Of a stretch of 64,000 nt of DNA, positions 42,927-61,275 are shown piece after piece. Both the position numbers and the translations under genes were made by a program. Below the pieces are notes generated by a model, which worked only from the letters and a program-made list of their open reading frames with translations, did no database searches and was not told the origin of the DNA. Each line of letters opens with the position of its first letter. The first letter of the stretch is position 1. This stretch comes from Dyadobacter sp. CECT 9275 (GTDB lineage: Bacteria > Bacteroidota > Bacteroidia > Cytophagales > Spirosomataceae), in the NCBI RefSeq assembly GCF_907164905.1, contig NZ_CAJRAF010000002.1, forward strand, positions 2,356,001 through 2,420,000, given 5' to 3'.

Positions 42927-43034
42927 TTCGGATCAAACTGACCACCTGATTCCGGAGTAAACTGACCACCTGAGAGATTAGAAAATGCTGTAGAATCAAC
43001 CATATTTTTGGCACGAACCAATCGTGTAAAAGGT

Positions 43035-44585: not shown

Positions 44586-44606
44586 TCCTTTAAACAATTA
44601 ATAAAA

Positions 44607-45356
44607 ATGAACACAAACACTTTGGAAAAGTTACGCAAGCTAAAATTTTACGGCATGTTCCATGCCTTTAAAAGTAGCCTGGAAAGTGGAAAGACTAATG
44701 ATTACACGGCGGATGAGCTTTTAGCTCATCTAGTTGACGCTGAATGGGATGACAGAAATAACCGTCGGGTCGAACGCCAGATCTTGTACGCACGGTTCCG
44801 CTATAAGGCCATGGTCGAAAATATCCACTATCATGCTGATAGAAGTATTGACCGTAATCAGATCATGCGCCTAGCAGAATGCTCCTTTATTGGCCGAAAT
44901 GAAAACCTACTGATCACAGGCAGTACCGGAATCGGTAAAAGCTATGTAGCATCTGCGATTGGTCATCAGGCATGTATACTTGGCTACCGCGTAATGTATG
45001 CCAGTACTCCCAAATTGTTTGCCAAACTCAAAATGGCCAAGGCGGATGGATCCTATATCAAAGAAATTACAAAAATAGAACGGCAACAACTTCTTATCCT
45101 GGACGACTTTGGTATCCAGCCGTTCGATGCCCAGAGCCGGGCAGCACTGATGGAAATCATAGAAGACAGGCACGGAAAAACATCCCTGATAATTACTTCT
45201 CAGTTGCCTGTTAGCAAATGGCATGAAGTAATAGGAGAAAAAACCATTGCTGATGCCATTTTAGATCGTATAGTACATGATGCACACCGGGTTGAATTAA
45301 AGGGGGAATCAATGAGAAGAAAACGAAAAACGGAGCTCGAAACCAGCTACGAATAA
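44607..45356 (+). CDS. istB: IS21-family ATPase helper protein
   Basis: A 249-residue AAA+ ATPase related to DnaC/DnaA. Walker A is ITGSTGIGKSYVASAIGHQA; Walker B is LLILDDFGIQ; the sensor segment is SLIITSQLPVSKWHEVIGE. IstB loads and directs IstA to target DNA. It starts 21 bp after istA. Confidence 0.95.
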   Translation: MNTNTLEKLRKLKFYGMFHAFKSSLESGKTNDYTADELLAHLVDAEWDDRNNRRVERQILYARFRYKAMVENIHYHADRSIDRNQIMRLAECSFIGRNENLLITGSTGIGKSYVASAIGHQACILGYRVMYASTPKLFAKLKMAKADGSYIKEITKIERQQLLILDDFGIQPFDAQSRAALMEIIEDRHGKTSLIITSQLPVSKWHEVIGEKTIADAILDRIVHDAHRVELKGESMRRKRKTELETSYE

Positions 45357-45482
45357 TTATAACTTTTATTTACTAATTTTGAATCGCTTCTACTAGCATT
45401 TTCTACTACCGGCCGCCAGTTAATTAGGTGGTCAATTTGCCACGGAATCAGGTGGTCAACTTCTCCGAAATACCCACCCAAT

Positions 45483-45839
45483 CTAATAAATGAATTTATA
45501 TCAGTTACTCAGGGTATTGGAGATTTATCCGTACCTGGCAACCTTGAATTTAAGGAACTTAATATCTGGGATTTAGATTCGACACCGTGGGATAAATATG
45601 AGAACAGGAAAATTTTGAACTTGGATATTGACTACTTTTTCATGCGAGATTACCGCTCAACCATTGAATTATTTAGCGTAGAATTGATTGATTATTTTTC
45701 GGGATGGCTTTTGAAAAACAAAGATAAATTTGACATAATAACTATTGCACTAAGTCCCGAATGTTGCGGCTCATGGGATAATTCAGTAAACATGGCAAAT
45801 AGAATATTAAAACCATTAAATCTTAAAATTGATATTTGA
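45483..45839 (+). pseudogene. C-terminal fragment of a UPF0489-like protein, cut by the IS21 element
   Basis: The frame is open from the IS boundary to the stop at 45839 (about 119 residues). ILNLDIDYFFMRDYRST and IITIALSPECCGSWDNSVNM resemble the arginase-like UPF0489 fold, where the Asp pair would be catalytic. The N-terminal part is absent; it is not on the other side of the IS element either. An ATG at 45615 could in theory start a 74-residue product, but this is more likely a dead remnant. Confidence 0.6.
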
Positions 45840-46465
45840 GAATATCGATTAGGTTGGTTGAAATGAAAATATCAATTCATTGAAATTATAGTCAAAAGTA
45901 GGTTTCACAGAAATTACTGATTAATGGGTTAAATTAAAAGTATAGTGGATCAAGTTTAAGAATATCATTATTCATAATTGTTGAACCATTTTACAGTCAG
46001 ATTTTCGAAATAGCAGAGCGGCCTATGCGGTGGGCTGTTAGCCGTGGCTGATTGCTCGAATGCCTTCTACTCCTCTTGGTAGCAATTTCATTCGCTGATT
46101 AAGATTACCTTTGGTTGCGTAACACCAAGGTAATTTTATGAATCCGAAAAATATAGATCTTATGCTAACATAAGCTCATTTAGAAGCCATGAGGGATTTT
46201 TCATATATTTAATTAAGGTAAGTAACAGAAAGAATTAGATATCAACAAAAAAACTATGTCAACTTGCTGATTATTAACAATTCTTATTTCTAGCTCCAAA
46301 AGTTAAACTCAAACAAACGCACCTCTGACTACCAGTATAGGCAATTCAAATTATCCAGAGTTAGTAAATAAAGTTCATTAATTCCCGGATTCTACATCAC
46401 TCAAATTCAAATCAATTGATATCATAAACATCATATTTCAATCTAATTCTCCATTTTAATCTAGC
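45840..46465. other. AT-rich intergenic stretch, no gene seen
   Basis: About 626 bp between the UPF0489 fragment and the integrase stop. It has stop codons in all frames. I see no recognisable repeat, RNA or protein relic. Confidence 0.5.
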
Positions 46466-47878
46466 TCAAATCAAGGCTTCAAGATATTTCCTCATTTTCT
46501 CATCATCAAACGATCCTAAATAGGCTTGTGTCGTCGAAATATTCTGATGGCCTAACGACTGGGATATAAACGCAATTGGGGCCTCAGAATGCAAGAGTAT
46601 AGTAGCGAATGAGTGTCGGGCGGCATAAGTTGTGATATCCATCGCTATGTCTAATTTCTTAGCGATACTCCGGATATGCAGGTTGGTCATCGTCACTATC
46701 TGAGAGACCGTACTCTTCTTCTGCTTTGCGGTCATGCCGGAATCCAAAAATGGAAATACGTATGATTCTGGCGCGGTACTGTTGGTATACCTGTTTATGA
46801 TATTCCAGCTCTCAGCAAACAGGTTTATTTTTATCCGGACTTGATTGCCCTTTCTCGTTCTTGCTGTTTTCTGCCGAACGAAGGATAAGCTATTGCCTGC
46901 CCTATCAATATCCTTCCACTTGATATTGCAGATATCTGTAATATTCATCCCATTACTCAGATATGAAAATACCCAAAGATCACGGCCTCGCTCTTCATAG
47001 GAACCAGGCTCGCTCTGGTAGCTGATGATCTTCATCACGTCAACTTTGGACAGTGCTTTTTTAATATTTGCACCAGCCGGAATAATATATCCACCCTTTC
47101 CAAAAGGATATAGATCTGAGCTTACAACCTTGTCTCTGATCGCATCATTAAAAACACTACGTAATTGCCGGCAATATATTCCCACCGTTGTAAGCGTTGC
47201 CGGTGTATCAATGGCAACAGCTTCCCCCTTTTTTAATTTCTTCTTTTTTGCAGCACGACCATACAGAAGCATCCATTGTTCATACGCTTTTAAAAAATCG
47301 GGAGTGACATGCTCAAATCTTAAAATTGTAGCAGGTTTCTGTGTATTCCGTTTAGGAGGCTTTGGAGTGTTCAGAAATCTGCTCATATCAGCATCATTGA
47401 ACGACGAAATAAATCGGCGCAAGGAAATACCCGTATCTCTGTAACTCGCAGCTGAACCAAGACGTTCTTCACTCTCCATCGCCTTTGCTTTTAAATCAAG
47501 CATGCTTATCACGTCGTCTGATTCAATCCGTTCGGGCGGAGCTTCTACCTTCCCGTAATTTTCAAATGATTCACGAAACAGATCAAATGTAAAATTCGGA
47601 CCTAGCTGTTTGGTGATGTTACGTGCAAATGGAACAATTCCTAATGGGGCAGTCTCCCGGCTCCACAACTTGTGCCAAACATCAAGAAAATTGTCATCCT
47701 TGATTTTACCATCCGGAGATTCTTTCTCAGCGTTTTTCTTTAACCGCTCCCACTCAGCCTTGCTAACTTTGATGCCTGTTGAAAACAGTTTCTGCTTTCT
47801 TTCAAAAATGACGTTAAGCTTAATCTTATTATCGTCTCTTCTGGTATCGAAGAACAAATTGACCGTGGCCTGTTTCAT
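46466..47878 (-). CDS. int: Tyrosine-type site-specific integrase of the element
   Basis: A 470-residue integrase of the Bacteroidota type. The N-terminal arm-binding domain reads KQATVNLFFDTRRDDNKIKL; a SAM-like core-binding domain spans about 120-270; the catalytic domain lies at about 290-470. Catalytic residues: TTYAARHSFATILL (Arg-His), SLGHQNISTTQAYLGSF (His and nucleophile Tyr). In place of the usual first Arg (xGxR) the sequence is YLSNGMNITDICNIKW, a known variation in IntDOT-like enzymes. I set the start at ATG 47878 (MKQATVN). The gene points inward from attR and is 24 bp away from a tandem 12-mer repeat. Confidence 0.93.
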   Translation of the reverse strand: MKQATVNLFFDTRRDDNKIKLNVIFERKQKLFSTGIKVSKAEWERLKKNAEKESPDGKIKDDNFLDVWHKLWSRETAPLGIVPFARNITKQLGPNFTFDLFRESFENYGKVEAPPERIESDDVISMLDLKAKAMESEERLGSAASYRDTGISLRRFISSFNDADMSRFLNTPKPPKRNTQKPATILRFEHVTPDFLKAYEQWMLLYGRAAKKKKLKKGEAVAIDTPATLTTVGIYCRQLRSVFNDAIRDKVVSSDLYPFGKGGYIIPAGANIKKALSKVDVMKIISYQSEPGSYEERGRDLWVFSYLSNGMNITDICNIKWKDIDRAGNSLSFVRQKTARTRKGNQVRIKINLFAESWNIINRYTNSTAPESYVFPFLDSGMTAKQKKSTVSQIVTMTNLHIRSIAKKLDIAMDITTYAARHSFATILLHSEAPIAFISQSLGHQNISTTQAYLGSFDDEKMRKYLEALI

Positions 47879-47915
47879 GATACTACAATTTTGATTGAAC
47901 ATTCATTCAATTTCT

Positions 47916-47939
47916 TGTGCAATACAATGTGCAATACAA
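47916..47939 (+). repeat. Tandem 12-mer next to integrase, identical to the one inside attL
   Basis: Two copies of TGTGCAATACAA (47916-47927, 47928-47939), followed by ATTT, identical to 10635-10658 and with the same following bases. They are candidates for arm-type binding sites of the integrase or its directionality factor. Confidence 0.6.
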
Positions 47940-48060
47940 ATTTACGGATTAGACGATAAACAGACAACAATCAAAAACAAAAATATTTTACAAATATCTA
48001 ATTATCAGTACATTAAACAATAATAGACAAATAGACGATAAGAAGAAAAACCACATTTTT

Positions 48061-48171
48061 ACTGACTCATAATCAGTAGGTGCCTGGTTCGATCCCAGGT
48101 GGGCCCACTTGAAAATCAAGGACTTAGAGAAATTCGATAAGTCCTTTTTCATTTATGAGCAATACAAATTT
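48061..48171 (+). repeat. attR: displaced 3' end of tRNA-Ile plus terminator
   Basis: From 48061 (ACTGACTCATAATCAGTAGG) to 48107 this repeats the tRNA-Ile 3' portion with one base change in the T-arm. It continues through the terminator hairpin and a GCAATACAAATTT segment, with several mismatches and one missing 12-base copy. There is no 5' tRNA half here, so this is the displaced chromosomal end. The bases 47940-48060 between the integrase-side repeat and attR contain no other feature. Confidence 0.88.
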
Positions 48172-48201
48172 GTTGGGATCAAGCCGAATTCTTGGGGAGA
48201 G

Positions 48202-48567
48202 TTAAGCATAAAGTTTAGTTAACCGAAATAAGAAAAAAGGAATGTCCCGAACACCTCTGAAGATGATCTAAAAGCCTCAATTTTGGCATTAAATAACTCC
48301 GCAGAGGCATTAATGCTTCTGTTTTTGAAGAAATTTAAGATTTCCGGATAATAATGTGTTTGAATGGATCTGGCAACGCTTTTGAATGAGTTTAAACCGC
48401 AATTTTCAATTGCATTGTACCAAAGGGCGGGCTTTTTGAAGGCTTGTTCTTTCAATTTACAAGTCCGGAAGATCGCTCCTAATTCTGTTGTCAAGCGGTA
48501 CGCCTGGTAGACAACCGGATAGCGCTCAAAAGTAGTCTGGACCGTAAAACTTGCGAAGCCGACTATT
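48202..48567 (-). pseudogene. C-terminal fragment of an ISL3-type transposase
   Basis: About 120 residues of the end of an ISL3-like DDE transposase (ISAon1 group): RYPVVYQAYRLTTELGAIF then HYYPEILNFFKNRSINASAE with FNAKIEAFR. A frame change after IEAFR is needed to reach the usual ending FRGVRDIPFFLFRLTKLYA at 48202. Stop codons appear upstream of 48567. It is a dead remnant located just outside attR. Confidence 0.72.
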
Positions 48568-48832
48568 TATCAGGATGTTTAAACAACAAATATCTACTTC
48601 TGACAAGTACTTTTTTTAGGGCGACCTTGGAAATTCGATTAGGAACGACATTTTAGCAGGGATATTTGCTGAGCTAAATTTCTATTTTTTGTCAGTAGTC
48701 GGCGTAAGCTTGGAATAGTCCAAATTATATGCCGGCTATTTTTGTATTTATTGAAAATGGGTGCTGACTGAGCATAGATTGCCGGGCTCTTACAATTTGA
48801 AGAGTGTCAAGTTTAGATTTGATATGATTGGG

Positions 48833-50189
48833 TCAGGCTGCGCTTCTGAGCTCTTGTTGCTGTTGCTTTCGTCGGCGTTTTGCTATCAATACGCAATTGG
48901 CCGTTAGTACCCCAAAAAAGAGCCAAACCTGTTCTGTCTCAGGATTTCGGGCTTTTATTTTTCTAAGTAGATATTGCTCCTTTTCGTTGCCGAAGCTGCC
49001 GGCACCGGCCGCCCGGCTCCAGGCGAGTTGACCTCTCCTTGTTTAACAGGGCTTTGATACTCTTGGAGGGCTTGTCGTCTTTTCCTCTCCCTTTTCTTAT
49101 AAAATTGGTAACGATCCCCTCCCTGGTGGCAAATTTCCGATTTTCATTCGTAGCATAGATGGCATCTCCTGCTAAATGAGAGCATTCTCCAAACAGATTT
49201 CTATGCTTTAATGTACTTATTTTAAGTCTCTTACATTCGTTAAAAGCTTTATAGCTAACATGTTCGAGGATGCTTATGCCGCCTACTTGCATTTTATGAA
49301 CTTTAATCCCGAATTCAACGGGCTTATTCTCCTTACCGCGAACAATCGGTCTGATGTAAGGCTTGTAGATACTGACAATTCTTTCTTTTATTTTAACTTT
49401 TGGATAATGGAAATGGTGAGACTGCTGTTGATAAACCATTTTAATGGTCTTAAAAGTGGCAGCATCCTTATCAGTAAGCCCACATGCCTTCACCTGATTG
49501 AGAAGCTGTTGATATGAGTTAATACCTTTCAGCAGTAATTTCAGCAAAGCGCTTCTTCTGGTTCTTGTTTTTCGATAAGTTTTTTTTCTTTGTTTGCTAT
49601 ACACATTTGTTTTCTGCTTTTGCTGCTTGTACTTGGAACGTGGTTGGGCAATGTAGTGAAGGTCGCAAAGTGCAGGAATTTGCTTTTCCCATATCCATTG
49701 ACAGCTCTCCCACAAGATCTTGACATCAGTAGGGAAACGCATATGGACTTCGTAGCAGGTGGCATCCATCAGAAGCACATTTTTGTCCGGGATTTCTTCC
49801 TTCCAATTAGATATCAACACTTTCTGTACTGCCTGCATATCGACATGACGTCCCAGGTAGCTCCTTACCTTTGAGACAAAGGAGTTGTCTTTAATCGACT
49901 CATTATCAGGTAAAAGAATACCACAAAATAGCTGCATGCCCCAATCGGTATTAAACCGATCCAGAAGCTTTTGGTCGCTTAACCCCGTATAATGCTTTAA
50001 AAACATCATTCCGAAAAGACCTTTCGGAGGTAACCATGATGGAGAACCTCGTAACGTTTTCTTTTCAGGAAGTAGATCGGTCAAACCATTCCAATCGATA
50101 CAGTCATGGATGCGACCAAGTTCCGTATTCTTGAAAATGTGCAATTTTGGCGAATTGTACGAATCTGGAGAAAATAGAGTAATTTGCAT
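48833..50189 (-). pseudogene. DDE transposase (IS1182/IS5-like), frameshifted near the C-terminus
   Basis: The first 390 or so residues are typical of the family: an N-terminal domain (WNGLTDLLPEKK, HYTGLSDQKLLDRFNTD) and a DDE domain (VLLMDATCYEVHMRFPTD, KPVEFGIKVHK, GDAIYATNENRKF). Just after the STRLE segment a GC-rich stretch of about 16 bases (near 49004-49019) shifts the frame, giving an early stop at 48963. The expected ending (GSFGNEKEQYLLRKIKARNP to a stop at 48833) continues in another frame. The transposase is probably inactive. Confidence 0.72.
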
Positions 50190-50434: not shown

Positions 50435-51145
50435 CTAGTAACTCCACTCACCATGACTGACAGGCAGCCTGTTAAGCTCTTCCCGATAAAATCTCCATTG
50501 CGGTAAAAACTTGTCCATTAATCCAACAAACCGGTCTCCATGGTTTCTTTCAAGTAAGTGAACCATCTCGTGCACAATGATATATTCCAGGCAGATCAAA
50601 GGCTTCTTGGCTAATTCCAGATTAATCCAGATTCGTTTTTTTTCAATATTACAGGTTCCCCACTTGGTTTTCATTTGTTTAATCTGCCAGTCATCCACTG
50701 ATACTCCTATCACTTTTTCCCATTTATTGATCAGAGGTTCGACATCTTTTTTTAACTCAGTTCGGTACCATTCGGTAAGAGCCAGGTGTTTTTGTTCGAC
50801 CGACGCTTCTGGTTTTACAAATAAGTCCAGATACCTTTTTGTTTTCAATATCACTTTCGGCGGAGCGTTGTGCTCATTTATCCTCAACAAATATCTTTTC
50901 CCCTGAAAATAATGGCTTTCACGATTCTTATATAACCGTGGAGATTGTCGGTCCTGCGCTTCGAAATTACGCTGATGACGCCGGATCCAGCCAAGTTTGG
51001 AAATAGCAAAAAGACGCAACGTTTCGTCTTCAACCTGTAATGGCGCGGCAATACGTACCCGGCCTGTTGGTGGATAAACCGACAAGTGAATATTCTCAAT
51101 GTCTTTTCTGACAATATCAATCGTCAGTTTTGAGCCTATTTGCAT
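50435..51145 (-). CDS. YgjP-type (DUF45) M48-like metallopeptidase
   Basis: A 236-residue protein with the zinc motif IVHEMVHLLERNHGDRF (HExxH plus a downstream His) near residue 185, and the family signature KTKWGTCNIEKKRIWINLEL. This is the YgjP/DUF45 group, often found attached to type I restriction loci. I set the start at ATG 51145 (MQIGSKLTID), where homologues begin; a GTG at 51163 is also possible. It lies just downstream of hsdR and is probably co-transcribed. Its role in the restriction system is unknown. Confidence 0.87.
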   Translation of the reverse strand: MQIGSKLTIDIVRKDIENIHLSVYPPTGRVRIAAPLQVEDETLRLFAISKLGWIRRHQRNFEAQDRQSPRLYKNRESHYFQGKRYLLRINEHNAPPKVILKTKRYLDLFVKPEASVEQKHLALTEWYRTELKKDVEPLINKWEKVIGVSVDDWQIKQMKTKWGTCNIEKKRIWINLELAKKPLICLEYIIVHEMVHLLERNHGDRFVGLMDKFLPQWRFYREELNRLPVSHGEWSY

Positions 51146-51165
51146 CACAGATACTTTCTCCACGG

Positions 51166-54100
51166 TTATTTATATTCTGTCTGCTGTTTGATGATTTTGA
51201 TAATCGGATCCAATTTTTCGGTTTTGTGATATTGCTCTAATAACGGTTTCACAACCTGATTTTTGAGGTGCTTTTCCTTTTGAGAATGACCTATCCAATT
51301 GTCGTGTTTACCATAAATGACTGCTTCATCCATCAATAGGGCGAGCTTTTCTTCCTTGTCCAGATTGTCGTAAAGTGCTCGCTTCCCCTGCGTGTCTATG
51401 CCCGTCGGGTAATTGTCCTTTTTAGCTTCAGGCTGGATTTCTTTTGCCAGATCTTCATACCTTTTCAAAGACTCTTCATAATCAATCGCCCCTTCTTTTC
51501 GCAAACGGATCAGCTCTAAAAGTAGCACACTCATTTTTTCATAATAGGCCGGATTGATTGGCATTTCCTGAATAATGGTTCTGCGCATGTTATTCTCAAT
51601 CGTTTCGGCCACCGCCTGCTTATCATGTTTAATTCCGTCAGAGAGCCGACCCGTTGCATATTCGATTCCATTCTCAACAATCAATTGGAGTAAAGAAGCA
51701 TCTCCCAATTTCGATAAGACCCTGCTTGGATCGGCGGTCAGATACATGTCCAGCATTTGGCGCATATCAGGTTCGTATCTTTTCAGATCAATGTAGTCGC
51801 CACTATATTCCTTGATGCTATTTCGTAGCTGCGTGTATTCGTAAACCTGTTGTTTAATTGTGGCCGCTTGTTTTGGTGTAAATCCTGCCTCTGCCATTTC
51901 ACCCGCAATATTATTGTAAGCCCTGATGAGCGCAACGACCAGTTTATAGAAAGTAAGGCGTTTTTCCTCTCGCTCTTTCAGCTCTTCTTTGTTAGAAGGG
52001 TTCCCGCAGAAATAATGAAAGTATTGCGGATTGTGCTTTGGCATAGCCACAGGTTCGCAAAGCTGATGTAATGCTTCCAGCGCATCGTCCAGCCTCTCTT
52101 TATTTTTTTGATGCCGATCGGTCAACAGGCCTTTAATATCCTCTTCTTCAAAAGCGTCGAATGCGTCCGAAGTATAATCTGATATGGATTTTTCAAGCTT
52201 GCCAAACAGATTTTTATAATCGACAATGTAGCCAAACTCCTTAAAATGTGGATCTCCTTCTTCTTCAGCACCAAGCCGGTTTGTTCTGCAAATTGCCTGG
52301 AAAAGCCCGTGATCCTGCATTTGTTTGTCTATATACAGGTACGTACAGTGAATGGCATCGAATCCGGTCAGCAGTTTATCCACCACAATGAGCAGCTGCA
52401 TTTGTGCCGGGTGATCCTTGAATTCCTTTTTGGCAAACTTTTCAAAGTCTTCGGCATTGGTGTAGCCATAGTCCCGGAGCATTTTTTGATAGGTTTCATA
52501 TTGCTCCTTTTTCTCCGTTTCTCCTTCTCCCGTTTCTTCCAGTTTGATGGAGCTTATCGTAGGAACATAACTCGTTATAATGGCGCACTTTTTCAAACCC
52601 GTACTCTGGAAGATCTCGTAATACCGGCACGCTTCATAAATACTTCTGGCTACCAGCATGGCGTTACCCTTGCCATCTTTTAACCGCGACTGGAATAAGA
52701 AGTCTTTTCTGATATCAAAAACAATTTTTTCCAGACGGCTTTTTGTGCTCAGTACTTTTTGCATGGTTCCCCATTTCTGTTTAAGCTCAGCCTTGGGCAG
52801 ATCATTCATTCCCTTCGTTACGGTTTCAAACCACTGATCTACACCTTTTTGATCCAGTACATGCTGGTCAACATCCCGTGCTTCGTATAACAAATCCAAA
52901 ACGACGCCATCCTTCACCGCTTCGTCAAATTTGTAGGTATGGATGTATTTCCCGAAGATCTCAATACTTTTCTTTTTGTCAGCTTTGAGTAACGGCGTGC
53001 CTGTGAACCCGATAAAAACGGCATTTTCCGGCAGTAGCTCTTTCATCGCCTTGTGCAGATCTCCGCTGTTGGTACGATGACATTCATCTATAAAGACAAC
53101 GAACTGGCCTTTGGCACTGAAATCCTTTGGAATCTTGAGTTCAGCAATGTAGCTGGCTGTTTCGCTGTCTTCTCTCCCGCTGAACTTATGTATCAGGCTG
53201 CATAACAGACGCTCTTCATTCACGTTCAGTTTTTGAATCAGATCGGCACCACTTTTGGTACGGACAATGGTTTCACCCACGCCGTTGAACACACCTTCTA
53301 TCTGTTCGTCCAGTTCGGTCCGGTCCGTGATCACCAGCACCCGCTGTTCTACGCCAAGTGGTTTGTTTTCGAGTATCCATTTCGCCAGCCACACCATCGT
53401 CAGGCTTTTCCCACTGCCTTGTGTGTGCCAGATAATTCCGCCTTCCCGTCGCAACAGGCTTCTCTGCGCCTCTTTTACACCAAAGTATTGGTTAGGACGG
53501 CAAAGCTTTTTGGTGCCTTTGTCAAAAATCACAAAGTGATTGATGATGTCCAGCACGCGTTCTTTACTACAAAACTGTATCAGGTGTTTGTCCAGCACAT
53601 TTTCGTCCGGATTGTAAACGTCATTGTCCTCTTTCCATTTTAAAAAGTACTTTTCTTTCGTAAGCGTAGTGCCGTAGTACAAACCTGCGCTATCATTACC
53701 AGCCAGCACAAGCTGGACCGTTGTAAAGAAAGGCTTGATAAACAAATGCGCCTGGTTGTCCAGATTCTGGCGAATGGCTTGAGTCACGGAAGTACCCGCT
53801 TTTTTCAATTCCAAAACGCCAATGGCAATACCATTCAGATACAACACGATGTCAGGACGTTTGTTGTTTGCTCCTTTCACAGATACCTCTTCGGCAATGG
53901 CAAAGTCGTTTTCTGAGGCGTTTTCCCAATCTATCAGATGCACGGTCTCCTTGTTTTTACCCGCTTCCTCTTTTACAGGAATTCCATAACGAAGCAAAGA
54001 GTACACCGCCCTATTCGCCGGGTAGAGATTATCACCGGCATTGATGGTCGCTGCTTTTTTAAGTTCGAAAAGTGCTTTGGAGATAAGCGTTGCATTGTAC

Positions 54101-54258
54101 CCTTTTCTGGTAAGATATGCGGTGAGCAAAGCAACATTTACGTTACTATTCTCTTCCGTATCTTTCAGGTTTCCCAAATATCGATAGCCCAATTGCTGCT
54201 GAAACAATTTGACAATACGATCCTGGGCAATGCGCTCTTCTTCTCCGGGTTTACTCAT
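51166..54258 (-). CDS. hsdR: Type I restriction endonuclease subunit R
   Basis: A 1030-residue HsdR. The N-terminal nuclease domain has the PD-(D/E)xK residues in NKRPDIVLYLNGIAIGVLELK-like sequence (PDIVLY ... ELKKAG, about 130-155). The translocase motor contains Walker A HTQGSGKSLTMVWLAKW, DECHRTNSG (motif II), VFIGFTGTPLL (motif III) and LLIVVDKLLTGFDA (motif V). HsdR needs HsdM and HsdS to assemble. It overlaps the upstream DUF1016 gene by eight bases. HsdR appears intact, unlike hsdM in the same operon. Confidence 0.95.
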   Translation of the reverse strand: MSKPGEEERIAQDRIVKLFQQQLGYRYLGNLKDTEENSNVNVALLTAYLTRKGYNATLISKALFELKKAATINAGDNLYPANRAVYSLLRYGIPVKEEAGKNKETVHLIDWENASENDFAIAEEVSVKGANNKRPDIVLYLNGIAIGVLELKKAGTSVTQAIRQNLDNQAHLFIKPFFTTVQLVLAGNDSAGLYYGTTLTKEKYFLKWKEDNDVYNPDENVLDKHLIQFCSKERVLDIINHFVIFDKGTKKLCRPNQYFGVKEAQRSLLRREGGIIWHTQGSGKSLTMVWLAKWILENKPLGVEQRVLVITDRTELDEQIEGVFNGVGETIVRTKSGADLIQKLNVNEERLLCSLIHKFSGREDSETASYIAELKIPKDFSAKGQFVVFIDECHRTNSGDLHKAMKELLPENAVFIGFTGTPLLKADKKKSIEIFGKYIHTYKFDEAVKDGVVLDLLYEARDVDQHVLDQKGVDQWFETVTKGMNDLPKAELKQKWGTMQKVLSTKSRLEKIVFDIRKDFLFQSRLKDGKGNAMLVARSIYEACRYYEIFQSTGLKKCAIITSYVPTISSIKLEETGEGETEKKEQYETYQKMLRDYGYTNAEDFEKFAKKEFKDHPAQMQLLIVVDKLLTGFDAIHCTYLYIDKQMQDHGLFQAICRTNRLGAEEEGDPHFKEFGYIVDYKNLFGKLEKSISDYTSDAFDAFEEEDIKGLLTDRHQKNKERLDDALEALHQLCEPVAMPKHNPQYFHYFCGNPSNKEELKEREEKRLTFYKLVVALIRAYNNIAGEMAEAGFTPKQAATIKQQVYEYTQLRNSIKEYSGDYIDLKRYEPDMRQMLDMYLTADPSRVLSKLGDASLLQLIVENGIEYATGRLSDGIKHDKQAVAETIENNMRRTIIQEMPINPAYYEKMSVLLLELIRLRKEGAIDYEESLKRYEDLAKEIQPEAKKDNYPTGIDTQGKRALYDNLDKEEKLALLMDEAVIYGKHDNWIGHSQKEKHLKNQVVKPLLEQYHKTEKLDPIIKIIKQQTEYK

Positions 54259-55291
54259 GGTCTCTCTGACTTAGTCTTTGTTGAGCAATTTCTACTGCTT
54301 TATGTAATTTTTCGCGAAGTAATTTCTCTGGTGGCAGTGCGGTCAGATAGTCCGCTACCCGGATATTGCTTCTATCCAGTTGCAGCAGCTCTACGTGTTC
54401 TTCGTTTTTGCCGGTGCAGAGTATCAAGCCGATGGGTGTATGTTCACCTTCCACCTGTTCGTGCTTTTCCAGATACCGCAGATACAGTTCCATTTGTCCT
54501 TTAAATCCGGCTTCAAATTCCCCGATTTTCAGGTCAATGGCTACAAGGCATTTTAATCTTCTGTGGTAAAAGAGCAGATCGATGTAGTAATCCCGGTTGT
54601 CGATGGTGATTCTTTTTTGTCTGGCCAGAAAAGCAAAATCACTTCCCATTTCCGTGATGAAACGTTGCAGCTCCACAATGATGCTCGTTTCCAGATCCTT
54701 TTCAGAATAGGTATCTGCCAAACCTAAAAAATCCAGAAAATAAGGATCCCGGAAAACCAGATCCGGACTTACTTTTTGTTCTGTTTTTAGCTGTTCAAGG
54801 TCATTGATTATCGTTTGTTCCGGCTTCTTGCTGATGGCGGTGCGTTCGTAGAGCATGGGGTTTATTCTTTCCTGCAATTGCCGGGACGACCACCTTTCCA
54901 GTTTACAGATTTCGATGTAAAAGTTTCTTTTTACAGCATCTTCAATAGAAATAAGCTGTCGAAGGTGCGTCCATGTCAATTGTGTACGCAGTGCGTGCAC
55001 AATTTCAATTTCAGGAAAAACCTCTGCCATACGCATGCAATGATGCAACTGCCGTTTGCTCCATCCATTGCCATAAGTGGTAGTAAGTTGCATAGACAGC
55101 GTAGCGACAATTTGCTTACCGTACTCCGCCCTGTTGAAATTCAGAACCTCTTGATTGATGCGTTTGCCAATATTCCAGTACAACAGCGTGATCTCCGCAT
55201 TAACCGCCACAGCCACATTCTGCCTGCTTTGCTCAATGAGCCGCTTTACCCCGACGGTAACAAGTTGTATGTTAGCAATTTCCGAACCCAT
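54251..55291 (-). CDS. DUF1016/YhcG-type PD-(D/E)xK nuclease-like protein
   Basis: A 346-residue protein. The N-terminal half (about 1-155) is the DUF1016-N helical domain (ALRTQLTWTHLRQLISIED, YEIC-like and MLYERTAISKKPE). The C-terminal half is a PD-(D/E)xK nuclease-like fold with IDLLFYHRRLKCLVAIDLKI, in which Asp, Asp and Lys fit the active site. I set the start at ATG 55291 (MGSEIANIQL). Such genes are common in type I restriction loci and defence islands. It overlaps hsdR and follows the AbiEii-HsdS fusion by 64 bp. Confidence 0.88.
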   Translation of the reverse strand: MGSEIANIQLVTVGVKRLIEQSRQNVAVAVNAEITLLYWNIGKRINQEVLNFNRAEYGKQIVATLSMQLTTTYGNGWSKRQLHHCMRMAEVFPEIEIVHALRTQLTWTHLRQLISIEDAVKRNFYIEICKLERWSSRQLQERINPMLYERTAISKKPEQTIINDLEQLKTEQKVSPDLVFRDPYFLDFLGLADTYSEKDLETSIIVELQRFITEMGSDFAFLARQKRITIDNRDYYIDLLFYHRRLKCLVAIDLKIGEFEAGFKGQMELYLRYLEKHEQVEGEHTPIGLILCTGKNEEHVELLQLDRSNIRVADYLTALPPEKLLREKLHKAVEIAQQRLSQRDHE

Positions 55292-55355
55292 ATCTACAAA
55301 AACCAAGTTACATCAACCGGACAGCCATTTTCAATTCTCGATTGTCAATTTTCAA

Positions 55356-57626
55356 TTAAACGAGCCTGATGTTCCCCGTCAGCAAATTCTGCATCATCCC
55401 CAATTTTACATCCCTGTATTTTGCCAGTTTGGTTTCTAATGCGTTGATTTCGGCGTCCATACTGAAAAGTATCGAAGTAATTTCCGTTTGAATTTTTTTG
55501 GGAGGAATTGGAATTTTGACCGTTTTTAAATTTGCTTTTGACACTCCGTAAACTTTAAGCCCGGTCGCTAGCCTATCAAGCTGAGATTTGACTACTTTAC
55601 TATTGTGAATGTAGGCTCTAAACCCATTTACAAATTCTTCATTTCTATCTCTAAGTAAAAAGGTATGAAGACCAGAAATTATCTTTCTTGAACCCAAATT
55701 GAGAACTTCCACACTTTTACCAATTCCTTCGTAATCTTCCGAAGCGTCAGCCATAATGAGATCACCCTCTTGCAAATAATGATAACCTTTGAGCTGATTA
55801 TGAGGGATTGTAGGTAAATTACTTTTATCTAAATTCAAAAAGGAATTCCATTTGGTATGAATATCACCATAATGCACATATCCAATGCTATCAATCTCAG
55901 TTAATTCTGCTCTTGAATAAGATGCGGTAGATAGAAAATCAAAAATATCGCCATAAGTTTTCACCTCCCAACCCTCCTTCGGTTCCAGCAATTTTTGCAT
56001 GGCTCCTTGTTTGATATTGCGTTTTTTGGCAATGAGTTTTTCTAAACTGCTTATCAAGGCATCCGCATCGGAAAGAGCCGTGGCAATGGCGGTTTGCTCG
56101 GCGATTGTGGGAGGAAGAGAGATTGGGAATTTCTTGACATCCTTACTTGTGATATTGGGATCTTTACGACTACTTGTAGCTATATCCTTCCAATAATCAA
56201 TTCGATAATTAAGAAAATTTATTAAAAATAGCGGACTATGATATTTTTGATCAAGTTTGATTGCCGTCAGCGCCTGATTTACACACGCGCTTATTGCTAA
56301 CAACCCTGTTCTACCTATTTGATTAAAACCACCATACATTGCAACAAGTACAGTATCAATAGGTAAAATTTTCAGACTGCTCGTTTCTTTAAGAGCAGTA
56401 CTCGTAACTTTTTCCTGGGTATCTACTATTTCTCCATTATTCAAATCCAAAGTTTTAACCCAAAAGATATTTCCATTCAAAAAATATCTATCATGCATTT
56501 CTCTTCTTGGCGTGGTTCCGGACGAAAAAGTCGCAATTTCCTCTAACCTTTTTACCTCCCAATCCACCGGAATCAGCCCAACCTCCGTCTGTTTATAACT
56601 CTGAGCCGAATCCCACTTCGTGGAATTTATTAGATTTTGTAATTCTGAAAGCTTTTCAATGAGAGCAACAAAAGGCAATGATTCTCTGTAAATCATGTTT
56701 TCCTGCATTTCCTTGTAATCAGCTTCCCATAATGGCAAAAGATCATCCGGAGGAATGAAATTAATATGTTCAGGGGCATGCTTATCATAGTCTACCCCTG
56801 AGATGTGTGCAAACTTTTTACGATGCGCTATAATAGTCGTGTATAGATTTGCATTGGCCAGAGCGGTTTTGGCAAATTCCGTTTTGCTCAGTTTTTCTAT
56901 ATCATACAGATGCCGGCTAAGCCGCTCTACCCGTATCTTCTCCTTAGGACGCTGAAACTCCTCATGCAATAAAAAGACTTTTTCCAAAAATGTTCGCTCA
57001 GGGTTTACAACCGGGATGGTGATGGCCTTGTCGGCAAATGGGCGGTCTGCATAGTTTTGACCTGCCAGCGTGTTAAAAGTTTTTTGCGTAAAGGGCTCTT
57101 TCAAGGAACGGCTACCCACTTCTACCAGCAGCCCTGGCTTTAAATAGGTTTCCGTTTCGGTAAGTTTCTTGTAATATATTTCTATGATAATCGGATCCTG
57201 ATCGTGATTTACAACTTCACGGTATTTTATTTCCACTTCTGAAAATCCTGCCTCTGAAAATTTAGCTTTAAGCTCCTCGGTGAAAGTAGTAGTGAGGTAT
57301 GCATAGGATGTCCGTCTCAATCTTTTGATATCACCACTGGTTAACTCCCCCTTAAATCCGAGAAACTCCCGGTCCAGCACAAGATCAATATCCTCTGAAA
57401 AGCGATCTATCAGGTTCCAGGCCTTACTCAATGAGGTTCCTCCTTTGAAAATAAGTGACGGAGCACATTCCATAGAAAAAATGAGAGCCAGTGTGTGTAC
57501 CACCCACCAATCCTTTTCAACAGCAACGGCAGGTAACGGAATCTGTCTGCCTGTTTCAGTATATATATTTAACTTGGTGCTATCTGGCAACCGTAACCAC
57601 TCTTTCAAGTGTAAAAACTCACTCAT
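55356..57626 (-). CDS. AbiEii toxin - HsdS specificity subunit fusion protein
   Basis: A single 756-residue reading frame with two unrelated parts. Residues 1 to about 335 are an AbiEii-type nucleotidyltransferase toxin: IFKGGTSLSKAWNLI (about 59-73), RFSEDIDLVLD (75-85, paired Asp) and NPERTFLEKVFLLHEEF (208-224). From about residue 343 the sequence becomes a normal HsdS start (SYKQTEVGLIPVDWEVKRL), with TRD1 (about 350-505), a central conserved helical part (AEQTAIATALSDADALISSL), TRD2 (about 545-705) and a C-terminal conserved part ending in MMQNLLTGNIRLV. No start codon suitable for a separate HsdS lies near the joint (about 56600-56618). The ATG overlaps the AbiEi gene stop by four bases. 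Confidence 0.88.
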   Translation of the reverse strand: MSEFLHLKEWLRLPDSTKLNIYTETGRQIPLPAVAVEKDWWVVHTLALIFSMECAPSLIFKGGTSLSKAWNLIDRFSEDIDLVLDREFLGFKGELTSGDIKRLRRTSYAYLTTTFTEELKAKFSEAGFSEVEIKYREVVNHDQDPIIIEIYYKKLTETETYLKPGLLVEVGSRSLKEPFTQKTFNTLAGQNYADRPFADKAITIPVVNPERTFLEKVFLLHEEFQRPKEKIRVERLSRHLYDIEKLSKTEFAKTALANANLYTTIIAHRKKFAHISGVDYDKHAPEHINFIPPDDLLPLWEADYKEMQENMIYRESLPFVALIEKLSELQNLINSTKWDSAQSYKQTEVGLIPVDWEVKRLEEIATFSSGTTPRREMHDRYFLNGNIFWVKTLDLNNGEIVDTQEKVTSTALKETSSLKILPIDTVLVAMYGGFNQIGRTGLLAISACVNQALTAIKLDQKYHSPLFLINFLNYRIDYWKDIATSSRKDPNITSKDVKKFPISLPPTIAEQTAIATALSDADALISSLEKLIAKKRNIKQGAMQKLLEPKEGWEVKTYGDIFDFLSTASYSRAELTEIDSIGYVHYGDIHTKWNSFLNLDKSNLPTIPHNQLKGYHYLQEGDLIMADASEDYEGIGKSVEVLNLGSRKIISGLHTFLLRDRNEEFVNGFRAYIHNSKVVKSQLDRLATGLKVYGVSKANLKTVKIPIPPKKIQTEITSILFSMDAEINALETKLAKYRDVKLGMMQNLLTGNIRLV

Positions 57627-58234
57627 TTATTTAAATCTGTTTTGACTGGTTCAATTAGCTTTCTTATCCATACCGGCGCTAATTTTAAATCGTGCTGCAA
57701 ATGATAGGGTTTTTCTTGTTTTAGTAATTCTTTAATTTTATTAAGCTCGTCTGCTTTAACATTATCTTTTCCAATGGTCCGCAAAGCCTGTATGGCTAGC
57801 TTGCTAATGTCGCCAATGCCCGATACATTTCTGGAACTTGCTTTTTTAAAGGTGATCACCTGTTTCCCAATCCTGATTTTTCGCGCAGATGCATCCGTAT
57901 AATAAACAATGTTCATAGGAACTTGTGTTGTCAACCCTAACTTATACATCGCATAACTGCCGGTTGGGAGAATCCGTGCCTTATCCCTTTTTGCAATCGC
58001 ACTGGCAATCTCTTCAATTCCTGGTAAGATCGGACCCAGTATCTTGTCATTTACCGGACGTACATATATTCCGGCAGCAACTCTGGTTAGATCTCCGGAT
58101 ATTACCAGCCTTTCCAATGCTTTGTTTACCGCCTTTGGGTTGGCAATAGAAGCAAAACTATCCACAAAAAAAAGCGAGCCATGTCTTGCTTTTTTTATTT
58201 TGTTAAATACCTGTATTTCAATGTTTTCTGTCAT
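57623..58234 (-). CDS. AbiEi-type antitoxin (DUF6088-like)
   Basis: A 203-residue protein with the N-terminal winged-helix of AbiEi/DUF6088 antitoxins (RHGSLFFVDSFASIANPKAV, then ALERLVISGDLTRVAAGIYV) and a C-terminal antitoxin domain (RILPTGSYAMYKLGLTTQV). It should neutralise the toxin half of the next protein and may repress the promoter. I set the start at ATG 58234. It is inserted between hsdM and hsdS, in the same direction. The upstream 49 bp contain TTGCGACAA-type repeats (TTTGCGACAAG and CTTGTCGCAAAT) forming a palindromic pair near 58249-58281, a candidate operator. Confidence 0.85.
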   Translation of the reverse strand: MTENIEIQVFNKIKKARHGSLFFVDSFASIANPKAVNKALERLVISGDLTRVAAGIYVRPVNDKILGPILPGIEEIASAIAKRDKARILPTGSYAMYKLGLTTQVPMNIVYYTDASARKIRIGKQVITFKKASSRNVSGIGDISKLAIQALRTIGKDNVKADELNKIKELLKQEKPYHLQHDLKLAPVWIRKLIEPVKTDLNK

Positions 58235-58283
58235 AAAATTAGATCTTCCTTGTCGCAAATTTAGTAAATATTTGCGACAAGAT

Positions 58284-60484
58284 TCAAAATCCCATTTTTT
58301 GCAGGTGACTCATCACCTTTACCTCCCATTTTTCCGCATCCTTCGCCAAAAAACCAAGCGTATATTCATAACGTTCCGTCAGTTCCTTAATCCGTTGGGT
58401 AAGCCGCTGGCTGATACGTTCCATTTCTGTTTTCACGCTTCGTTCAATGCTGCTCATCCATTTGTCATCCACCACCAGCTGTTTGATATCCGCTTCGGTG
58501 AGGGTTTTGTAATGGTTTAATGCCTTTTTATCCAGGTCGGTGATGGCGTCTTTTATTTTTTTATTCAAATCGGCCTGGTCTTCCACCAGTTTTAAATATT
58601 TTTCCAAAACCGCAGCTTCGCCCTGAGAAACTTCCTGTTCAGCTTCTTCAAGGAAAATCCCTTTTGCTACTTTATCTTTCGTTTTAATTTCTTTCAGTCT
58701 CTTTTGTACAGAAACTTTGTTCACCTTTTCCATATCTGCAAAGTAGCCATCTTCACCACCATGCTCTTCTTCCAGTTCGGTGAGTTGAGAAATAATATCT
58801 TCCCGGCGCGCTTCCAGTTTTTCAATGGTTGTTTTTTCTTTCTCAAAATAACGGTCTATGACGAGCGTCTTAGGTACCAGGTCGCAGTCCCATCCTTTAT
58901 CCACATCCGCTCCGGCTTTGTTTTTAACCAAAATCCGGTAGGGTTCGGCTTTCCAGCCATCTGCCGCGATCAGGTAACAGTCATCCTGCATTGTCTCATT
59001 CCAGTAGTTCATCAAATGCTGGTATACATCATATTTGTCCATCAACGCTTTGCCCGTATAGGTTTTCAACGCGTCTTCGGAAACCTGGAAAATGGTTTCC
59101 TTGGGTTTGATGCCAACGGTCAGGTTTTTCAGCAATTCCGTGTTCCGCGTTTTCCAGTCACCAAACAGGCTGTCCATTTCCAGGCTGAAACTTACAAATT
59201 CAGGATGCTGGAAAATGGTCTGTTTAATGGCGTCCTTACCAATTTTCAGTTCACTGTATCCTTGTCTTTTTCCCGGCGCAAACAATTCGGCTTTCAGTGT
59301 TTCGTAAACCGTCCAGTATTCATTCAACGCTTCAATATCTGCGTTGGGGATTCCACCCATCAAATGCGCGGCAATGTCCTGGATATCTTCCGTTTCCTGA
59401 CTGTCGATATAGCGGGGAATGTTCAGGTTAAAGTCATTTTTCGGATCGCTGATTTCATCAATACTTACCAAACGGCTGAACTTTTCAACTTTAATCTGCT
59501 TGTTAACACGCCGTGTGGCAAAATACAAGCACCTTTTCCGGTACTTTTCAGTGATTTAATGATATGCAGCAAAAAGGCGTAATCACCATTTTTGTCAGGA
59601 GGAATCGTTCCTGCTTCAAAGCGTGCATAAATATCATCGGCCGGATTAAAACCGGTCGACCAGTTTTTAAGCGAAAACGGCGGATTGGCTACAACGAAGT
59701 CGAACGCTTTGAGATCGCCGGTTTTGTCATCTTTGAAAAACGGATCGGAAAGGGTACTTTGTCCCCGGTGAATTTCGGAGAAGGTTTGCCCGTGCAAAAT
59801 CATGTTCATGCGCGCCAGGGCCGCCGTAGCCACATCTTTTTCCTGACCATAAATGGTACCTTTTCCGTCCGCTTCGTCTACGGTTTTTAAAAGCAGCGAT
59901 CCGGAACCGCACGTCGGGTCGTAGAACGTCGTATTATTGGTGGCATGTTTGATATTCAAAACCTGCGCCATCACCCGGCTTACTTCGCTGGGTGTGTAAA
60001 ACTGACCCTTGCTTTTCCCGCTTTCCGTTGCAAAGTGGCGCATCAGGAATTCAAATGCATCACCGAGTATGTCATCACCGGCGGCTCTGTTTTTACTAAA
60101 ATCAAGGGCCGGGTTTTCAAAAATGGCGATCAGCTTGGTAAGCCGGTCAACCATTTCCTTGCCCTTACCCAGTTTATCGTCATCATCGAAGTCAGCCGCG
60201 TCAAATACCCCAGCAAGGTTGTTTGCATCCGCAAGTACCCCAATGATCGTATTCATTTTCTCGCCAATCTCTCTGGTCCCCTTTAAAGCGACCATGTCCT
60301 GGAAACTTCCACCTTCCGGAATTTCGATCAGTGCATCAGGATCATTACCATACTTATCAGAAACATACTTGACAAACAACAACGCCAGAACGTAGTCTTT
60401 GTACTGGCTTGCATCCATTCCGCCACGCAATTCATCACAACTTGCCCATAATGAGCTATATAGTTCAGATTTTTTGATTGCCAT
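58284..60484 (-). pseudogene. hsdM: Type I restriction methyltransferase subunit M, internal deletion and frameshift
   Basis: Two overlapping frames. The first (60484 to 59465) contains the N-terminal helical domain, SAM motif I (FYDPTCGSGSLLLK) and catalytic motif IV (VVANPPFSL), then reads ACILPHGVL followed by unrelated TSRLKLKSSAVW and stop. The second (59528 to 58284) resumes with NKQIKVEKFSRLVSIDEI and the normal C-terminal coiled coil. In intact HsdM the segment between GVL and NKQ holds the end of the methyltransferase fold (about 80-100 residues by my knowledge of the family); here it is missing and the frame is shifted near 59510. A functional methylase is unlikely. Confidence 0.85.
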
Positions 60485-60543: not shown

Positions 60544-61275
60544 TTAAAGCGTGTGTTCGCTTATGTTCCGGATAATAGTCTCGGCATTTTGCTTAAAGCC
60601 GCCTTTGCGAAAACGAAGACTATTGGGATGACAGATTTGGAAAGTATTCTCCGGCAATTTTTGGGAAGTCCATTTGTATAATAACTTCGGAATAAGTTCT
60701 TCCCGCAAAGCTTCTCCCGAAGTCAGCCCAAGGTTTTGGTTAAGATGCCATTGATAATTGGGACTTGAAGTCATGATAACAACAATTTCGGGTTTCAGGA
60801 TATCGACTTCTGCCAATAACAAATCAATAAAACCAGCCATTGTGTTATCGTACAAGTCACCAACTGGTCTGTTTTTACCGACATCAATTTTCGACAGATT
60901 TGTCCAAAGCACCGTTTTCCGTAAATCCGATTCCTGGTAAACCGCGTTCAGATCACGCATAAACCACCAGAAAGGAGAGTTGATAGGCTTTTCCTGAGCC
61001 ATGAATTCCTGATGGCACTGTATCAATTTCTCATAAAAAACTGGTAAGTCTTCATTCAGATCGCATTTTCTCCACCCATGTGTTTCCATCCCCACAAACA
61101 TGATCTTTTTTCGAGCATTAAGATACTCCGGCTGCACATCCATCAGGAAGGGACCGTGCATATCGCCTAATTGTTCATCCGAAGCATACGTTCTGATGGT
61201 TTTATACAAATCTGGTAGTCTATCAAAATACAGATTTCGGAGCTGGATATTTAAATCATTAGCAGAGAATGACAT
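60544..61275 (-). CDS. Hypothetical protein with uracil-DNA-glycosylase-like outline
   Basis: A 243-residue protein I cannot place firmly. KKIMFVGMETHGW (about 55-67), VLWTNLSKIDVG (about 122-133), LKPEIVVIMTSSPNY and NTFQICHPNSLRFRKGG near the end recall the order of motifs in uracil-DNA-glycosylase-like folds (beta-strand with G-x-E, then HPxxLR). If so, it would bind or process nucleic acid. It is on the same strand and 60 bp upstream of hsdM, and may belong to the defence locus. A different, non-catalytic role is possible. Confidence 0.45.
   Translation of the reverse strand: MSFSANDLNIQLRNLYFDRLPDLYKTIRTYASDEQLGDMHGPFLMDVQPEYLNARKKIMFVGMETHGWRKCDLNEDLPVFYEKLIQCHQEFMAQEKPINSPFWWFMRDLNAVYQESDLRKTVLWTNLSKIDVGKNRPVGDLYDNTMAGFIDLLLAEVDILKPEIVVIMTSSPNYQWHLNQNLGLTSGEALREELIPKLLYKWTSQKLPENTFQICHPNSLRFRKGGFKQNAETIIRNISEHTL

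Follow-up and report, generated by a model that had tools for sequence, protein, structure and literature searches.

An AbiEii toxin domain joined in frame to the HsdS specificity subunit within a type I restriction operon of Dyadobacter

The fused gene and its joint

The window analysed here, a stretch of 64,000 nucleotides from Dyadobacter sp. CECT 9275 (G000:C2:2356001-2420000 of a 7.23-Mb genome in four contigs), carries on its minus strand a type I restriction operon whose specificity subunit, HsdS, is preceded in the same reading frame by a toxin of the AbiEii family. The fusion gene, AbiEii::HsdS (57626-55356, minus strand), encodes 756 residues from an ATG start with no internal stop; on the plus strand, where the earlier note on this DNA gave no strand, the interval 55356-57626 has many stops. 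That note had read the frame as a whole AbiEii joined to a whole HsdS with two target-recognition domains (TRDs), and the open reading frame, Pfam and PADLOC bear this out. The toxin domain occupies residues 1-337 (56616..57626, minus strand), with AbiEii placed at residues 55-317 by Pfam (E 4.8e-31, 109 bits against a curated cut-off of 22.5) and residues 8-337 aligned by PADLOC to positions 4-304 of a 309-position profile. The HsdS domain, with its two TRDs, occupies residues 343-756 (55356..56600, minus strand). Methylase_S (Pfam) matches the fusion in two stretches, the best at 353-532 (E 6e-28), Specificity_I (PADLOC) aligns residues 342-755 to positions 15-438 of 443, and the HsdS half has a sequence match to PDB 1yf2 (E 8.6e-44). 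No match to the PrrC family was found in the fusion, AbiEii and Methylase_S being the only families that Pfam gives.

The junction lies at residues 334-344 (56595..56627, minus strand), where the toxin end ..LINSTKWD passes into HsdS SAQSYKQTEVG.. without a stop or start codon; the last toxin residues read ..LQNLINSTKWD and HsdS picks up at SAQSYKQTEVGLIPVDW. Among the 60 unfused HsdS relatives listed, many start with M, a few residues and then GYKQTEVG or a near-identical string, and unfused toxins end near the KWD position, the nearest of them, L221, being KWD followed by TAG. In the window, residues 317-354 contain no in-frame ATG, GTG or TTG. With no start codon at its usual place, HsdS would be made only as a piece of the fused protein, unless translation began at some point within the toxin.

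The toxin half retains what is conserved in its family. The nucleotidyltransferase (NTase) motif hG[G/S]..DhD, as defined in PMC3985639 (papers are cited here and below from portions of their text), is present with G62, G63, D79 and D81, motifs III and IV being placed by eye, and all 66 of 66 strongly conserved columns are kept. The toxin fold is that of the MenT toxins. An AlphaFold2 model of the whole fusion has a modest mean confidence (71.9) and predicted template-modelling score (0.53), with most of the TRDs below 50 in predicted local distance difference test (pLDDT) and values down to 50-57 at the joint (residues 341-360), and we draw no claim from it on TRD geometry or toxin-HsdS contacts.

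Antitoxin gene and putative operator

Directly ahead of the fusion lies an antitoxin gene (57623..58234, minus strand) encoding 203 aa from a likely ATG at 58234, within an open frame that extends in full over 57623-58258. Its TGA overlaps the ATG of the fusion, which agrees with the ATGA coupling described earlier. The product is a DUF6088 protein with an AbiEi-like winged helix, matched by Pfam (PF19570, E 4.1e-67) and by PADLOC (AbiEi, E 2.1e-67). It scores only 20.1 bits against the cut-off of 150 of the NCBIfam TAA_AbiEi equivalog; on these profile scores we name it DUF6088, AbiEi-like, and it falls outside that equivalog. The Pfam link to AbiEi_4 amounts to one match of E 0.05, in the related locus L037. 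The AlphaFold2 model of the antitoxin (pLDDT 94.3) has AbiEi 6y8q as its top Foldseek match, and both the N-terminal winged helix and the AbiEi C-terminal fold are present.

The stretch separating hsdM from the antitoxin gene contains a putative palindromic operator, TTGTCGCAAAT-ATTTACTAA-ATTTGCGACAA (58250..58280, no strand assigned), which is a perfect palindrome. Inside it, 21 nt before the antitoxin ATG, the string TAAATTTG (58256..58263, minus strand) fits the Bacteroidota -7 box TAnnTTTG, a consensus described for sigma-A in a flavobacterium (PMC9723704); a -33 box was sought by eye and none is claimed. The exact palindrome has its sole match in the window genome at this site, and five other places match with 2 mismatches.

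The putative operator recurs at many related DUF6088 antitoxin genes of Bacteroidota. The dyad TGTNNCAAAT-N9-ATTTGNNACA, counted with one mismatch allowed between the arms and one to the core, occurs at 67 of 101 such genes and at 0 of 2020 plainly shuffled regions. The genes counted score above 80 bits to that of the window, with duplicates dropped and the window excluded, and since these loci are related, the 67 cases cannot be taken as independent. Counted a second way, the dyad stands near the antitoxin start in 66 of 100 loci, where the 1.49 Mb examined contained 83 such dyads altogether, and TAnnTTTG lies within it in 55 of those 66. Palindrome positions 4-5 and 25-26 co-vary (CG/CG 28, CA/TG 20, AA/TT 10, CC/GG 9), giving four arm types, which looks as though the inner bases recognised vary from one antitoxin to another. 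From these features we infer that the hsd operon has an internal promoter repressed by the antitoxin, with hsdM upstream and toxin::hsdS and hsdR downstream. Since the operator sits between hsdM and the antitoxin gene, hsdS and hsdR are probably under antitoxin control.

The restriction operon and its broken methylase gene

In transcription order the minus strand carries hsdM (60484-58284, broken), the DUF6088 antitoxin, AbiEii::HsdS, a DUF1016/YhcG gene, hsdR and a YgjP-like gene. The DUF1016/YhcG gene, a PDDEXK nuclease by Pfam, stands between hsdS and hsdR (54251..55306, minus strand), hsdR (51166..54258, minus strand) encodes 1030 aa with matches to Pfam HSDR_N and TIGR00348, and the YgjP-like metallopeptidase gene (Pfam) follows hsdR at 50435..51163, minus strand. 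Of the parts of a type I system, the two-TRD HsdS and HsdR are present in the window and an intact HsdM is absent. The hsdM gene is split into a 5′ part (59465..60484, minus strand), a 339-aa frame covering HsdM 1-327 up to a frame change, and a 3′ part in another frame (58284..59528, minus strand), covering HsdM from about 407 onward. Compared with the related loci L220 and L037, about 250 bp are missing past the NPPF motif, where the reading frame also shifts; hsdR, toxin::hsdS and the antitoxin are all intact beside it.

The 339-residue product has lost its C-terminal part, and deleting the HsdM C terminus is reported to prevent assembly with HsdS (PMC6158711). The window methylase is thus probably dead. 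With hsdM broken, this locus should yield no methylation or restriction in the window strain, and the toxin-antitoxin part alone would remain selectable. Complementation in trans was considered and is unlikely, as the three hsdM places checked among the other N6_Mtase matches of the genome (C1 start, C1 end and C1 near 1.95 Mb) are 27-31% identical. Provided that the assembly is correct, loss of the methylase alone is not enough to render the toxin lethal in this strain.

Two of those hsdM places lie at the ends of C1 (L254, L255), which repeat each other in inverted orientation over 10.85 kb, at 99.9% identity and with 1 mismatch besides 8 single gaps; each end holds an hsdM match and an hsdS match with stops, and one hsdM copy is split into two frames. 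The 250-bp loss in the window hsdM differs in kind from such small assembly errors or differences at contig ends.

Just upstream of hsdM, a 243-aa gene (60544-61275) has a weak uracil-DNA-glycosylase match (E 0.008, below cut-off), and mobile genes stand beside the operon at 43008-50189, namely an IS21-type istA/istB pair, a tyrosine recombinase and a DUF772 transposase. In a related type I operon of another genome (L018 in G171), hsdS is preceded by a DUF1016 gene and separated from hsdR by a small HTH_3 gene. Operons of the type seen in the window and L018 seem to gather extra genes in their gaps.

Recurrence and history of the fusion

The earlier note had proposed a protein search for AbiEii and HsdS domains together, and held that the fusion would be a single fresh accident if no other genome had it. 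We searched with the toxin half, restricting candidates to 0.55-1.75 times 756 residues, and obtained 74 proteins, of which 4 combine AbiEii with Methylase_S: the window protein, P0002 (748 aa), P0003 (749 aa) and P0066 (683 aa). The last was dropped as a further fusion, the middle of its toxin looking frameshifted and the toxin partly corrupt. Two further full-length fusions therefore exist, and the idea of a single accident is rejected. P0002, named as an Opitutaceae protein from a metagenome-assembled genome (MAG), is identical to the L220 frame in G345, a genome placed in the order of the window. There hsdM (809 aa), the DUF6088 frame (212 aa), AbiEii::HsdS (748 aa) and hsdR (1018 aa) are all full length, the fusion shares 8 and 4 bases with the genes on either side of it, and a frame after hsdR (436-1140) is YgjP-like as judged by eye.

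Unfused arrangements of the same genes were also found. The Chitinophagaceae MAG locus L037 has hsdM, antitoxin, toxin, 160 nt, hsdS and hsdR, and both G345 and L037 carry the dyad. In L223, on a 3.9-kb contig, toxin and hsdS overlap by 10 nt, the toxin match running from residue 43 and the hsdS frame having 263 aa. In locus L036 an HsdM fragment, residues 1-45, stands right before the antitoxin, and the window proteins found no other hsd gene there, a remnant which indicates that the toxin-antitoxin pair can outlive the restriction genes. The genome sets searched, which overlap, were 222 (family), 390 (order), 395 (class) and 395 (phylum, with P0003 as query). The DNA encoding P0003 was not found in the 395 phylum genomes searched. 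Ten places at which the HsdS half alone matched inside a long frame were fetched as candidate further fusions, and in the 5 long frames scanned from them no AbiEii stood beside HsdS; these carried Methylase_S alone (3) or with methylase domains (2). Two HsdS proteins, P0111 and P0119, have about 190 extra C-terminal residues, alike in both, with no Pfam family at E 0.1. A phage or plasmid origin was rejected, neither of the two collections having a record that covers 80% of the query. No report of an AbiEii-HsdS fusion was found in the literature searched, mostly at the level of titles and abstract openings.

The conserved residues of the toxin are all kept in the window, G345 and P0003, save at one position in G345. 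Conserved HsdS columns are kept at 52 of 53 in the window, 34 of 53 in G345 and 36 of 53 in P0003; the lower counts stem, we think, from the 116 comparison proteins, which were picked for likeness to the window HsdS, TRDs included. The ratio of nonsynonymous to synonymous change (dN/dS) was uninformative, synonymous sites being saturated in 7 of 8 comparisons. Counted from the shared IN of the toxin end, the linkers have 9 residues in the window, 25 in G345 and about 12 in P0003, and are mutually unlike; that of G345 contains one TTG, 17 codons before YKQ.

A tree was built from 52 toxins that score above 330 bits against the window toxin, each distinct sequence being used once. In it the window toxin groups with the unfused L129 (99/90) and P0003 with the unfused L036 (100/95), and the G345 toxin falls loosely with L037 and L130. 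A single ancient fusion kept in all three is not favoured, since one clade of the three fused toxins is rejected by the approximately unbiased (AU) test (p 0.005); a clade of the window and G345 toxins is not (AU p 0.25). The fusion accordingly arose at least two times, perhaps three, or was undone several times.

The toxin-antitoxin cassette in other settings

Beyond the fusions, we collected 102 distinct toxin loci, 96 of them with the antitoxin. A same-strand downstream frame starting -60 to +200 nt from the toxin was present at 37 of the 102. These downstream neighbours include HSDR_N (4, one of which must be the hsdR of G345 itself), Methylase_S (2), PglZ (2) and a GHKL-type ATPase domain (3), and the rest are mixed; N6_Mtase occurs in 2 of 35 upstream neighbours. 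The distance from toxin to next gene ranges from a 4-nt overlap to a 24-nt gap for hsdR (L086 and L091, both overlapping by 4 nt), pglZ (L231, where the toxin ends 6 nt before it, and L061) and a DEAD/MZB helicase (L269). In the last, from G1019, the DUF6088-AbiEii pair is flanked on one side by an Eco57I-type methylase and on the other by a DEAD/MZB helicase of 2108 aa, with one in-frame TAA and 6 nt between toxin and helicase gene, a locus that we take to be DISARM-like.

Fusions of AbiEii to other partners were found in one protein each, with a type III Mod-like methylase (P0076, the kind assigned by judgement), with Swt1-HEPN (P0075) and with DUF1016 (P0004). AbiEii is also fused to its own DUF6088 antitoxin in P0005, and P0060 (1105 aa) combines it with NACHT/AAA-type NTPase and pentapeptide-repeat domains. 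Judged from gene order, the cassette sometimes lodges in DNA-modification operons, and joining the gene that follows is the extreme form of this.

Interpretation

The reading that we prefer, at a probability of roughly one half, is that a type IV toxin-antitoxin cassette was captured by a type I restriction operon and that its toxin today serves as a tethered domain for backup or addiction, kept in check by the antitoxin. This reading builds on what was observed, namely the architecture and the fact that it recurs, the conservation in both halves and the conserved operator. A self-regulated cassette, made up of the palindromic operator and promoter, the DUF6088 antitoxin and the AbiEii nucleotidyltransferase toxin, would have been captured between hsdM and hsdS, and subsequent loss of the toxin stop codon would have made the toxin the N-terminal domain of HsdS. 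The toxin-bearing HsdS would still assemble with HsdM and HsdR; an engineered single HsdM-HsdS chain works (PMC6158711). The antitoxin would silence the toxin domain and repress the promoter, from which hsdS and hsdR would by now be transcribed too; these two genes may additionally be read from upstream of hsdM. The toxin may act on tRNA or other RNA, as its fold relatives do. If antitoxin supply failed, as it might once host expression is shut off by a phage, the toxin would be freed as a backup defence, and loss of the operon would be penalised by the silenced growth-arrest enzyme, which would amount to addiction; AbiE stabilises plasmids (PMC3985639).

Several observations weigh against capture for such a role. 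The fusion is rare, the fused frame occurring only in G000 and G345 among the matches listed. The cassette can do without a restriction operon, as the other 65 of the 102 toxin genes, some of them at contig ends, have no downstream frame of the kind counted above. Type IV antitoxins are defined as not interacting with their toxins (PMC3985639). In the window strain, moreover, the break in hsdM would leave just the toxin-antitoxin half able to work.

The main rival, which we hold less probable, is neutral read-through, in which the toxin gene lay in frame, or almost so, right ahead of the next gene, its stop was lost harmlessly, HsdS tolerates N-terminal additions, the antitoxin still silences the toxin and the join has no function of its own. 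The habit of lodging and fusing described above also feeds this explanation: toxin and next gene are a few bases apart in the unfused L223, L269, L086, L091 and L231, and toxin relatives are fused to other proteins as well (P0004, P0076, P0075). The unlikeness of the three AbiEii-HsdS linkers points the same way. Against it, of the 4 loci with known DNA in which this toxin clade lies beside hsdS, 2 are fused (the window, G345) and 2 are not (L037, L223), with P0003 a further fused case, and the fused toxins have kept their conserved residues with the one exception in G345.

A bolder reading, which we regard as doubtful, would make the fusion a single-chain guardian with a latent tRNA-modifying toxin on HsdS. 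The antitoxin would also control hsdS and hsdR, timing restriction after methylation and licensing suicide when the complex or expression is attacked. The cassette would then be a portable fail-safe for type I, BREX and DISARM-like operons of Bacteroidota, sometimes fused to the DNA-recognition or core subunit.

Less likely still is the guard arrangement that the earlier note had suggested, in which the restriction complex, with the antitoxin, would hold the toxin inactive until an anti-restriction protein of the Ocr or ArdA type disrupts or occupies the complex and so switches the toxin on, as a single-chain analogue of PrrC or PARIS. It has precedents: PrrC, embedded in a type IC operon, is sequestered in the enzyme and released on phage infection or inhibition (PMC3874165, PMC12707154), which makes the EcoprrI example named in that note an apt one; PARIS cuts tRNA upon sensing Ocr, and BREX-related systems carry HEPN domains at the N-terminus of a core ATPase, to which they are fused as backup effectors (PMC12839542). 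The MenT fold of the toxin and the full-length subunits of G345 also suit a guard. Of that proposal, the fusion, its complete halves and the coupled antitoxin stand, and the broken hsdM, the operator and the DUF1016 gene did not figure in it; a guard watching HsdM does not fare well, since hsdM is broken in the window strain while toxin::hsdS and the antitoxin stayed intact, so that the absence of HsdM appears survivable, which counts against the simplest form. A dedicated antitoxin, besides, already accounts for silencing. Finally, an indel error or misassembly that joined two genes is very improbable, for although the assembly has small residual differences (those between the C1 end copies) and the adjoining hsdM is frameshifted, G345, in another assembly with the same architecture, and P0003 are independently fused, most other window genes look unbroken by eye, and HsdS in the window lacks a start codon where one would normally stand, G345 having just the upstream TTG.

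Toxin-antitoxin and restriction systems are usually seen as neighbours in defence islands, and here the toxin is covalent in the DNA-recognition subunit. If functional, the fusion would allow a direct test of the physical wiring of growth-arrest toxins to restriction complexes, beyond gene order, and the G345 operon, being full length, lends itself to such a test. It would also be an AbiE-based counterpart of PrrC and PARIS and possibly an added controller of type I restriction genes.

Comparison with known systems

The AbiE type IV system (Dy et al. 2014, PMC3985639) shares with this locus the order of antitoxin gene first and toxin second, the NTase motifs, the AbiEi fold with its N-terminal winged helix, and inverted repeats at the antitoxin promoter, which here is a putative one. 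It differs in that the toxin here runs on into HsdS, the locus lies inside a restriction operon, the antitoxin is a DUF6088 protein far under the NCBIfam AbiEi cut-off, and the palindrome is of its own kind. With EcoprrI-PrrC the locus has in common a growth-arresting effector gene within an hsd operon, and possibly an RNA target and a latent effector on the complex. PrrC, however, is a separate protein of another family, whereas the toxin here is covalent in HsdS and has its own antitoxin and putative operator. The HEPN-DUF499 fusions and PARIS modules of BREX and BREX-related systems (PMC12839542) likewise place a suicidal effector N-terminal to, or beside, a core subunit of a DNA-modification defence, with a different toxin and a different core subunit; 'AbiE' and 'DUF6088' have zero occurrences in the main text of that paper. 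The nested system of PMC12409362 also sets a second defence system within a type I operon, but that one, as described there, is a separate modification-dependent restriction enzyme, with no toxin-antitoxin pair and no HsdS fusion. A toxin embedded in a restriction operon is thus of a known kind; what appears new is the toxin covalent in the specificity subunit together with a putative antitoxin operator inside the hsd operon.

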